Shown here: piece by piece, positions 16,201 through 22,200 of the stretch
Layout of the letters: each line of letters opens with the position of its first letter
Position numbering within the stretch: the first letter of the stretch is position 1
Assembly: GCA_029582155.1 (NCBI GenBank)
Contig: CM055899.1
Coordinates: 55,633,853 to 55,697,852, forward strand
Origin: Panopea generosa
Taxonomy: Eukaryota; Mollusca; Bivalvia; Adapedonta; Hiatellidae
Direction of reading: 5' to 3'
Length of the DNA: 64,000 nt
Notes under the pieces: model-generated
Seen by the model: the letters and a program-made list of their open reading frames with translations, nothing else
Told to the model about the DNA's origin: nothing
Database searches by the model: none
Program-made: the position numbers and the translations under genes

Positions 16201-19200
16201 ACAAGTGAGAGTTAATTAAAATGACCTTGAGACAGCATTTCTCACCAATGTGTTTTACATATGAGAGCAGCAGAGTTGTATGGGAGGTGCAGAGCTATGA
16301 TTCGAAAATGATATTACAACAGATATATATAAAAAATATGTCATTGTATTTATTAAACTCCTACACCAAAAATTATGTGACTAACAACAATAGAGTCCCC
16401 GTGTTTATCAACAGCACGCGCGTAGCGTGGCATAGTCAGTAACTCTGCTGAGTAACATTTGAAATCTAAGTCTTAAAAAAAAAAATGCTGAGAAATAGAT
16501 AGAAGCAATAGAAAAAAACAGGAGGTGTACAAATAAGTAACCTACTTAACCCTTTGCTCCATAAGCATTTCTTGGACTCTTCAAAATTGAAAGCATTAAT
16601 TCACCACATATCAGCAATGGGTGAATTATGTTTATATTAACTGAGTGGAAAACAGTGCAGGAAGTGTTCAGATTGCTCGTTATGAGCAATCTGAACTCTT
16701 TCTGCACTGTTTTCAAAGGCCTTCTGCGATTGGTGTGGGAAAAAAGCGTATATATAGAGCAAAGGGTTAAAGTTACAGTATGAATTGTTCCATGCATAAC
16801 GCAACAGTGTGCCCTTTGTGTAAAAGTGTGCAACCTGAGAAGCCATATCCAGACTGACATGTCCCACTGCAGGTTAATGTTTTAAGCAATGAGTTTTTAG
16901 CCGAATGAAACATAAAATGTTTGTAAAGTCAACAGAAGCTACTATATATACTTCTATTATATATACTTCTATTATAATATATACTTCTTTTATATATACT
17001 TCTATTATAATATATACTTCTATTATATATACTTCTATTATATATACTTCTATTTTATATATACTTCTATTTTATATATACTTCTATTTTATATATACTT
17101 CTATTATATATACTTCTATTTCTAAAATTTTCCCCGGAAATATGCAGCGTATCCTTTAGTAACTTCCAAATTTGTCACGCTATCCCTTGAACAGTCTATT
17201 CATTTATAAAACACCAGTATACACAACTGCCTAGTACCACCTGGCTCAAACACCTATAGTCTCTAACCTGTGTTCATGTTTACTTAAAAAATCAATACAG
17301 AGAAAAGCTATGAATAAAACAATGGACAACCATCAAATTCTTTATCGGCCCCTTTATTTGGTTAGATACACATTCAGCTGCTTTTAGAAAAAGAACCAAA
17401 GTTGCCAGTTTTGTTAAACAGAAATAAACCTTTATATGTGACAGATTCTCTAAGCTGATATAGGACACAAGCCTCAATGCCATGATGACCTTTAATCTTA
17501 CAGGTAATTAGAAGGCTGCATCTATTTTAAATCATTTAAGTTCTATACTGAACAGAACAGTTAACCTGCCACTTCTGATTATCTTCCCATTCCAATAATA
17601 ATTATGAAATTATTCCAGTTACTGTCACAGTTGATAATGCAGACATGGCCATTGTTATCCTAAATGTTCCTTCTTATTCAAGTCAAAATTTCAAGGATAT
17701 AGCTCCAATGCTTTTAAGAAAACACTTAAAATATCAAATAAAAATAAATCCAAAATGTTAGGCGGCACATATTACGATGTTCTGTTCAGTATATTTTTAA
17801 TAACAACCACTATAATTTTAGATCATGATTCTCTAACTTGTAACATACTAAATGTACTTACAGATGACTGTTTCTCTAACTTATTTCATACTACATGTAC
17901 TTACAGGCGACTGGCTCTCTAACTTGTTTCATACTACATGTACTTACAGGCGACTGGTTCTCTAACTTGTTTCATACTACATGTACTTATAGGCGACTGG
18001 TTCTCTCTAACGTGTAACTTATAGTTGACTGGTTCTCTTTAACTTGTAACATACTTCATGTACTTACAGGTGACTGGTTCTCTAAATTGTAACATACCAC
18101 ATGTGCTTACAGGTGACTGGTTCCCTAAATTGTAACATACTATGTGCGTTTACAGGTGACTGGTTCTCTAACTTGTAACATACTACATGTACTTACAGGT
18201 GACTGGTTCTCTCTAACTTGTAACATACTACATGTGCTTACAGGAGTCTGGTTCTTTAAATTGCTACATACCACATGTGCTTACAGGGGACGTGTTCTCT
18301 AACTTGTAACATACGTAATATGTACTTACAGGCAACTGGTTTCCAAAATTGTAACATACTTCATGTACTTACAGGTGACTGGTTCTCCAACTTGTAACAT
18401 ACTACATGTACTTACAGGTGACTGGTTCTCTCACTTGTAACATACTACATGTACTTACAGGTGACTGGTTCTCTAACTTACAACATACTGCATGTACTTA
18501 CAGGCAACTGGTTTTCCAAATTGTAAGATACTGCATGTACTTACAGGTGACTGGTTATCTAACTCATAACATACTGCATGCACTTACAGGCAACTGGTTT
18601 TCCAACTTGTAACATACTACATGAGCTTACAGGCAACTGGTTCTCCAACTTGGAACATTCTACATGTGCTTACAGGCAACTGGTTCTCCAACTTGTAACA
18701 TACTACATGTACTTACAGGTGACTTGTTCTCCAACTCATAACATACTGCATGTGCTTACAGGCAACTGGTTTTCCAACTTGTAACATACTACATTTACTT
18801 ACATGCAACTGGTTCTCTAACTCATAACATACTGCATGGACTTACAGGCAACTGGTTCCCCAACTTGTAACATACTGCATGTACTTACAGGTGACTGGTT
18901 CTCCAACTTGTAACAAACTGCATGTACTTACAGGCAACTGGTTCTCTAACTTGTAACATACTGCATGTGTTTACAGGCGACTAGTTCTCTAACTTGTAAC
19001 ATACTACATGTGCTTACAGGCGACTGGTTCACTAACTTGTAACATAACATATGTACTTACAGGCGACTGGTTCTCTAACTTGTTTCATACTACATGTACT
19101 TACAGGCGACTGGTTCTCTAATTTATAACAAACTTCATGTACTTACAGACACCTGGTTCTCCAAATTGTAACATACTACATGTACTTACAGGCGATTGGT

Positions 19201-22200
19201 TGTCTAACTCGTAATATACATGTACTTAAAGGTGACTGGTTTTCTAAATTGTAACATACATGTACTTGCAGGTGACTGGTTTTCTAAATTGTAACATACT
19301 ACATGTTCGTACAGGCAACTGGTTTTCTAACTTGTAACATACTGCATGTACTTACAGGTGACTGGTTCTCAAACTTGTAACATACTTCATGTACTTACAG
19401 GCGACTGGTTCTCCAGAATGAGATTGAAGGCTCTACATTGGTTGGGTTTCAATTTATTCAAGGGAACCCTCGACTCTCCAATGAAGTCATAACCAAAGGC
19501 ATCCTCATCTAATACTGCTAATCTGAAAACATTCATGTATGATACAAAATACATGTGTATCACACAAGAGATCTCCATTAACAACAAAGATGTGTGGAGT
19601 CAAATGTAGAAGCACAAACATGAAATTGAAAATGTTGTGCAGATTTTTTGTAAGAAAACTGAATACAGAACTTATAATTTGCATCTAAATAGCATTCAAA
19701 ACTTTAAATTCTACCAATTCATTAAATCTTATAAATTGCGAAAAAAAACTCAGACGTTCCATTAATTAATCTCAAGTCTGTTCCCTTGCTAACACCAGTA
19801 CTGGTTGTTGTTTATGTGACAATAGGGTAGAGCCCAAGATTGGAATGCAACCTTTGGTCACCCAATTACCACCACCTACTACACCAACACCATGTTTAAG
19901 GAAACTGTTTCATCAATTTATATTTTGCGCAATTTTTTTATGTTCCTAATGAGAAGATAATTTTGTAATGCTTCATAACAAGTTGTGTCCTTTGATGACT
20001 TGGCTTTTATAACAGAATACAGTCAAAGCTGTGTAAGTGGCCACCTTTATTAAGCAACCACTTGTCTAAAGAAGCCACATTTGCTATTTCCACTTTTATG
20101 CTTTCAGAGCAAATTCACCTGTATTAAGCAAAAACCTGTCTTAAAAGGCCGAGTTTGCTCATTCGTGTGGCTGGCTGCTTAAGACAGGTTTGACTGTATT
20201 TCAGTATATAAATATTTAGAATGATTATATAAGACGTGAATGAACTGCTTTTTTATTTTTTAGATATTTGATCTGCCTTCCATAACTCAGGAGATGAAAA
20301 ATAAAAATCTTTAAAAGGTTCCTTAGAGATGTGCAGTTTGTCGCATTAGTAAATATTCAACTTTACATGTAAATTAATGTATTTGAAATGGAAGGGATAA
20401 ACTGTTTGAGGTATGACCATCTAAACAGTTTTGAGATAAATGCAGTGAACCAAATCAAAATAATCATGCTACAGTTGTTAGAAAATCCCTTGAACCTTCA
20501 ACTTTGGTTTGTATACAAAAAGTTGTTCTACAAAGAAGACTGTTTCTGTTAGAGAGATTTGTTGTGTATCAGAGTTTTAACTTGAGCTAAATAAATGAAC
20601 AAAGAATTTTATGAAAACAGAATGGTATGGCTTCCTGAATTCAATACAATGTCATAAAGCCATTATAAATAAATTGCTAGATAATCATCTAAAAATGGGG
20701 AGGGTGGGAGGATTTTATTTTTTATTTTCATTTTTAAAATTTAATAAAAAAAAAAAAAAAAAAAAAAAATAATAATTGAAAATAAAATAAAAATAAAAAG
20801 GATCGGGCTGGGATGATAATCTAGCAATAAATTTATAATGGCCTAATTTACTCTCTTCTGTCAATGCAGTTTCAAATACAAAATTAATGTGTTGTTTAAA
20901 GATGGTCATCGTAATATGAAAATTGGTCCATACATTAGGAAATTAAAGGGCGGACACGATCAACAATGGAGTATATGGAAATACATTACATACTGCAGAC
21001 AAGCAGTAACTCAAGATAAATGTACCTCAAATGAGGAAACTGCATCATGCCAAAACTACGGAATGATTCTTGAGAAATATGAAATAAGCCATGAGATCAA
21101 AGGTAAGAAATATTATACAATACCTTAAAATAAGGAATATATTGATACTATACATCATAAAAGGAATACTAAGGAATACTACAAGAGACGTCAGACTGAA
21201 TTAATAATTAAAACTACCCGAGAACTCAGGAATAACACCTCGGATTCCATATAAAGAATATAATGAGACTGATCTAGAATAAGGAATAGGTCAAAAGATC
21301 ATATAACAAGGAAACAATGCAAAGATATCAGAATAAGGAATAAAACCTAAGGCCGTAAACTAAGAAAACATACCTGAGTGTTTTCTTGTACATGTCTTCC
21401 TCAGTGATCCCATGGTATGTCAGGCTTTCATTCCACTGAGGATTGAGCGTTTTGTGGATCGTTTTGGTCCTCAATTTGTTAGACTACAAAATAAGACAAA
21501 AAGAGCAACTTTACAGAAATTATCAAGTTTACTTCAATACTGAAACATTCAATACTAGAACAATGTGATTGACGCATATACATTTCAAAGACCACTGTAA
21601 GTAGTACACAACTGCTCAGTACATTGTGTGATCACTAAGCATTTATATACATATTTTACTGAAAAGATGGATGGCCAGATGATGAAAGAATGATGGACGT
21701 GCAGTGCTCATAAATACTCACCATGCCCATTTGACTCAGTTGATCAAATTAGGTCTTAGACATATTCAGTTGTAGTTGTAGTTGTAGTTGTAGTTGTATG
21801 GTGTTTAGCGTCATTTTCAACAATTTTTCAGTCATATCGCGACGGTGTCTACTTGAGACAGTATTCTAAGCGCTGTCACACTGGAGTATCATACCGCAGA
21901 CACATGGTATGATACTCCACCCAGTCACATTATACTGACACCGGGCCGACCAGACCTAGAACTCTCCTCTAAATGCTGAGCGGCATCAAGCGAGGAAGCT
22001 TCTAGTACCATTTTTAAAGTCTTTGGTATGACCCGGCCGGGGATTGAACCCACGACCTTCCGCATGCGAGGCGGAAGCTCTACCACTAGACCACGCCGCG
22101 GTCTAGACATATTCAGGAAAAATGGGGTTTAATGCCATTTCCAACACATTTCTGATTAATATATCTTTTTATCTATCAATACTTAATTCTCAATGTTATA

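Follow-up and report, generated by a model that had tools for sequence, protein, structure and literature searches.

We analyzed a 64,000-nucleotide stretch of the Panopea generosa genome (contig CM055899.1; hereafter the window, with positions counted from its first letter) that carries on its minus strand a gene whose translated exons identify it as DOC2/rabphilin-type, encoding a predicted synapse-type calcium-binding protein with a C2A-linker-C2B arrangement. A 43-bp minisatellite occupies much of intron 4 of this gene and reaches into exon 4 (E4), so that its unit carries the end of the exon together with its 5' splice site. Exons E1 to E5, when joined, yielded an open and continuous protein of 181 residues, supporting the splice junction between E4 and E5. 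In a protein search, the C2A part of this joined protein matched DOC2-beta (E = 2.7e-53) and rabphilin-3A (1.3e-52) and, more weakly, DOC2-alpha (2.3e-47) and synaptotagmin-7 (7.8e-40); DOC2-beta and rabphilin-3A outranked the synaptotagmins. E4 on its own matched DOC2-beta with E = 8.4e-9 (phmmer). The E5 portion matched DOC2-beta 4ldc and rabphilin-3A 5lo8 and 2cm5, chains that we take to be C2B. Pfam returned a single C2 stretch (5.5e-29), within C2A, for a query that reached only the start of C2B. DOC2 and rabphilin are told apart by an N-terminal Munc13-interacting or Rab-binding region. An earlier note on this DNA had spoken of a C2A exon; homology supports E4 as the end of C2A, and the gene can now be specified as DOC2/rabphilin-type. 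Another exon-like stretch (27 residues) lies near 13.87 kb.

Table 1. Positions of the placed exons of the predicted DOC2/rabphilin-type gene, the minisatellite and its splice-site features.
Feature	Position	Strand	Remarks
E1	25214-25135	minus	placed exon, DOC2/rabphilin-type gene
E2	24753-24679	minus	placed exon, DOC2/rabphilin-type gene
E3	21483-21374	minus	placed exon, DOC2/rabphilin-type gene
E4	19399..19522	minus	124 nt; end of C2A domain; phase 0; terminal residues LENQSP; translation and phmmer
Exon-derived part of unit (putative source copy)	19399..19413, possibly to 19415	minus	15/15 identity to unit consensus
True 5' splice site of E4	19391..19398 (+1 = 19398)	minus	CCT/GTAAGTAC; phase-0 join to E5
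In-frame TGA	19387..19389 (+10..+12)	minus	ENQSP-VST-stop when reading on from E4
First decoy donor	19348..19355	minus	43 nt downstream of true site; identical CCT/GTAAGTAC
43-bp minisatellite	17829..19413	minus	Tandem Repeats Finder (TRF): period 43, 37.1 copies, 82% matches, score 1940; unit alignment
Intron 4	15671..19398	minus	3728 nt; array = 42% of length
E5	15513..15670	minus	linker and start of C2B
E7	11496-11403	minus	placed exon, DOC2/rabphilin-type gene

Wraparound alignment resolved the array into an exon tail, the unit that holds the true donor, and a further 36 units downstream, the last of which has its donor position at 17861. The earlier note had put the start of the array at 17860, where TRF gives 17829; a partial and more degenerate unit past the TRF end, at 17819-17801, was excluded from the count. 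The 43-nt unit consists of the last 15 nt of E4 (perhaps 17) and adjoining intron, and the array spans the E4/intron boundary to include exon bases 19399-19413. These 15 exon-side nucleotides, GAGAACCAGTCGCCT, were identical to the unit consensus at 15/15 positions, bearing out the claim that exon end and donor are repeated together. Further into the exon, base -16 (G) is common to 10/36 copies, -17 (T) to 34/36 and -18 to none of the 36; the exon part of the unit may be 15 to 17 nt long. Elsewhere in the window, the closest match to the 15-mer differed from it at 4 positions on the gene strand and at 5 on the opposite strand. A search for the exact unit pattern in viral_contigs, a collection without expected matches, returned 0 stretches. 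Counts by alignment column were made on the 36 full-length units including that of the true donor, leaving out the exon tail and the final partial unit; the tree was built on 35 units, with unit 33 omitted as well.

Two observations bear on the direction of copying. The end of E4 aligns with DOC2-beta to the last residue (LENQSP and LEKQLP, 4/6 identical). In addition, the exon carries a CpG at -5/-4, and in 36 array copies the same two positions read CA in 15, TG in 11, CG in 8, CC in 1 and CT in 1; these figures count copies rather than events, and the tree steps at the two columns were 2 and 7. Over the window, the observed-to-expected ratio was 0.589 for CpG and 1.258 for TpG. Because the exon end aligns to DOC2-beta and its CG reads CA or TG in 26/36 copies, we favor the exon as the probable ancestral sequence and the array as its copy, in agreement with the exon-plus-donor origin suggested in the earlier note.

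Most downstream copies retain a donor. GT is intact in 32 of the 36, GTAAG in 29, GTAAGT in 22 and CTGTAAGT in 21; the statement that most copies keep CTGTAAGT is accurate (58%), and 4/36 have lost GT. From -3 to +8, 17/36 are identical to the true donor, and in 20/36 the computed duplex energy with U1 was at least as good as that of the true donor (-6.8 kcal/mol), using what we presume to be the U1 sequence. The window contains 23 CTGTAAGT sites compared to 2.52 expected, and 0/100 shuffles reached 23; 22 of these are gene-strand sites within the array, namely the true donor and 21/36 copies. Position +6 of the donor drifts, with T kept in 25/36 full-length units. Beyond the first decoy at 19355, whose core is intact, the next three copies (19312, 19269 and 19229) have broken cores, GTACGA, GCAAGT and TTAAGT, and the four copies at 19189-19060 on the far side of this trio are again intact. 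As the earlier note had pointed out, use of any downstream donor would take in the in-frame TGA at 19389-19387, and a transcript containing it would be expected to undergo nonsense-mediated decay. Read on the plus strand, the array (17829-19413) resembles a run of successive 3' splice sites: reverse-complemented, the unit gives ACTTACAG/G after a CTAAC-like stretch, and 32 YTNCAG motifs occur, a likeness that follows from the complement of the donor.

We compared the variability of the donor with that of the rest of the unit. Column conservation was 0.917 at +1..+6 and 0.890 in other columns. After correction for the tree, positions -1..+5 had 1.0 steps per column compared to 2.02 for all columns (P = 0.08), and for +1..+6 the difference vanished (P = 0.47). 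The exon-derived part, excluding the two CpG columns, had 1.85 steps per column and the intron-derived positions +6..+28 had 2.09. Decay of the unit looked neutral across its exon-derived and intron-derived parts.

Two further routes by which the copies might be handled were considered. Units are able to fold over their own donor; gating of donors by hairpins was rejected, as the folding of 4 units gave z values of -0.65 to 0.31 relative to shuffles. No compensatory double changes were found at 7 hairpin pairs in 36 units, and the true site came 13th among the 36 full-length units in mean unpaired probability. Microexons or recursive splicing within units appear unlikely on inspection: the consensus is CCT/GT, not AG/GT, and 43-nt steps would imply very short introns.

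The window is rich in minisatellites. Merging 66 overlapping TRF rows, with short and few-copy rows omitted, gave 11 arrays with units of ~15-80 bp that cover 10,414 of the 64,000 bases (16.3%). When the 11 arrays were placed at random, they crossed a donor belonging to the six listed exons in 10% of trials and any boundary of these exons in 20%, figures that rest on an incomplete exon list. Since the arrays fill 16% of the window, an array crossing a donor by chance is not rare (about 0.10). A 33-bp array at 452-834 contains 9 acceptor-like YTNCAG motifs on the plus strand, and a 24-bp array at 46075-47726 contains GTAAGT 8 times on the minus strand and 3 times on the plus strand. The window also holds a reverse transcriptase fragment (54319-54902, plus strand; RVT_1, 8.3e-15) and a transposase fragment (42389-42703, minus strand; DDE_Tnp_4, 1.5e-11).

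Minisatellites that carry a donor at an exon boundary have precedents in the human CBS, ABCA7 and IFI6 genes, and the array described here, which spans an exon/intron boundary and has a 5' splice site in most of its units (GT 32/36, GTAAG 29/36), is a further case. Lievers et al. 2001 is reportedly the source cited for the variable number tandem repeat (VNTR) in CBS, and the primary report on IFI6 is said to be that of Turri, Cuin and Porter 1995. In the excerpts of the literature on which this comparison draws, the CBS VNTR has a 31-bp unit, is named c.1444_1467+7(16_21) and has 16-21 copies (PMC2630376). As read from this name, the CBS unit comprises 24 exonic and 7 intronic nucleotides, and like the unit here it covers exon end and donor; it differs in the gene, in its shorter unit and fewer copies, and in that length polymorphism has been shown for it. 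According to the same kind of excerpt, the VNTR in ABCA7 intron 18 adjoins exon 18 and includes its donor, with a 25-bp unit that starts with the donor GT and about 12 to 427 copies (PMC5954066). Retention of a single unit through the donor of the next was about 2 +/- 1%, out of frame and unaffected by VNTR size, whereas longer arrays went with reduced expression and increased skipping of exon 19 (PMC5954066). ABCA7 is similar in that the array includes the donor of the exon; unlike the present array, it begins at the GT without exon sequence, and its effects on RNA have been measured. In IFI6 (G1P3, 6-16), two downstream repeat units are described as acting as donors, giving three mRNAs (PMC4526556). 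There, too, a minisatellite offers several donors, but their use is reported from experiment, while those described here are predicted from sequence. The earlier note's word "unusual" thus overstates how exceptional this kind of array is, since, going by these excerpts, the CBS and ABCA7 VNTRs include the donor of an exon and the IFI6 minisatellite gives several donors. Our literature searches on competition between identical donors and on minisatellites with an exon-intron junction returned no match.

We consider it likely that the array is a neutral intronic minisatellite seeded at the exon/intron boundary, perhaps with some minor use of the closest intact copy. A 43-bp tandem duplication taking in the last 15 to 17 nt of the exon and 28 to 26 nt of intron, for which the homology is seen, would have started the array, and unequal exchange or slippage may have expanded it. 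The donor copies would then be inherited baggage without functional retention, a view that we take because constraint specific to the donor was not significant after tree correction. The true donor, being next to the full exon, is presumably the one used. By analogy with single-unit retention in ABCA7, the nearest intact copy at 19355 probably leaks at the per-cent level, and the resulting TGA-containing transcript would mostly be destroyed by nonsense-mediated decay. Collectively, the data neither demonstrate nor exclude a function; we favor the neutral reading because the tree-corrected constraint was not significant and because hairpins in the 4 units folded were no stronger than in shuffles and the pairs examined lacked compensatory changes.

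Several observations pull the other way. Changes between neighboring copies were 2.0 at -1..+5 compared to 5.67 for all columns (P = 0.008 against random columns), and 2/43 contiguous windows were as low. By tree steps, too, -1..+5 is among the least variable blocks of the unit, with 3/43 contiguous windows as low. Among the first four decoys, three have a disrupted core (P = 0.038 when their divergence is allowed for, in a stretch chosen post hoc). This low variability and the early broken decoys could hint at selection, and a wholly silent array, with 20/36 decoys predicted to pair with U1 at least as well as the true donor, would need explaining. With regard to origin, the three rabphilin alignments shown in the E4 search end at LE, 4 residues short of the exon end, and the coding argument for the direction of copying is a modest one.

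The earlier note raised the possibility that the array is a donor decoy or splicing rheostat. In such a device the array copies would vie with the true donor, and the length of the array would determine what share of transcripts contain the TGA and are decayed or yield a C2A-only protein. Retention of GT in 32/36 decoys, the strength of their predicted pairing with U1, the inclusion of the TGA by every distal donor and the low variability of the donor core by neighbor count would all suit such a device, as would the use of extra copies in IFI6 and ABCA7 transcripts and the lower ABCA7 expression and greater exon 19 skipping with longer arrays, as the excerpts describe them. Nevertheless, the constraint fell short of significance once corrected for the tree, and in the ABCA7 excerpts single-unit retention was about 2% and independent of VNTR size; we regard a rheostat as unlikely. 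Its fuller form, a length-variable rheostat of a presynaptic DOC2/rabphilin gene in which dozens of near-identical donors set the amount of full-length protein and selection has disrupted the nearest decoys but kept more distant ones as U1 traps, seems to us more doubtful still.

U1 sites can retain RNA on chromatin, and the many U1-matching sites of the array might, without being spliced, serve early in a 3.7-kb intron as a platform that holds the pre-mRNA there or blocks premature cleavage. The latter activity, telescripting, is described in an excerpted source as an established role of U1 (PMC5499120). Outside the array, though, intron 4 has 0.93 AATAAA per kb (2 in 2158 nt) compared to 2.62, 1.88 and 2.16 in introns 1-3, and at this lower density it hardly seems to call for special protection, although the array may itself explain why few AATAAA are needed. 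As donor constraint was again not significant after tree correction, we consider a U1 platform improbable. We give the least credence of all to an array older than the exon end, a repeat of intronic origin from which the exon acquired its end, for although the sequence match alone gives no direction and the end residues agree with DOC2-beta only in part, that end aligns through its last residue and the change from exon CpG to CA or TG in the copies is in the expected direction of decay.

The array adds another example, from an animal gene, of a minisatellite that probably grew from a 5' splice site. It would also constitute a natural experiment in which the spliceosome chooses one donor among some twenty that are equally complementary to U1 and set 43 nt apart. 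Should the true donor account for nearly all splicing, the locus would reveal the extent to which exon context prevails over pairing with U1.
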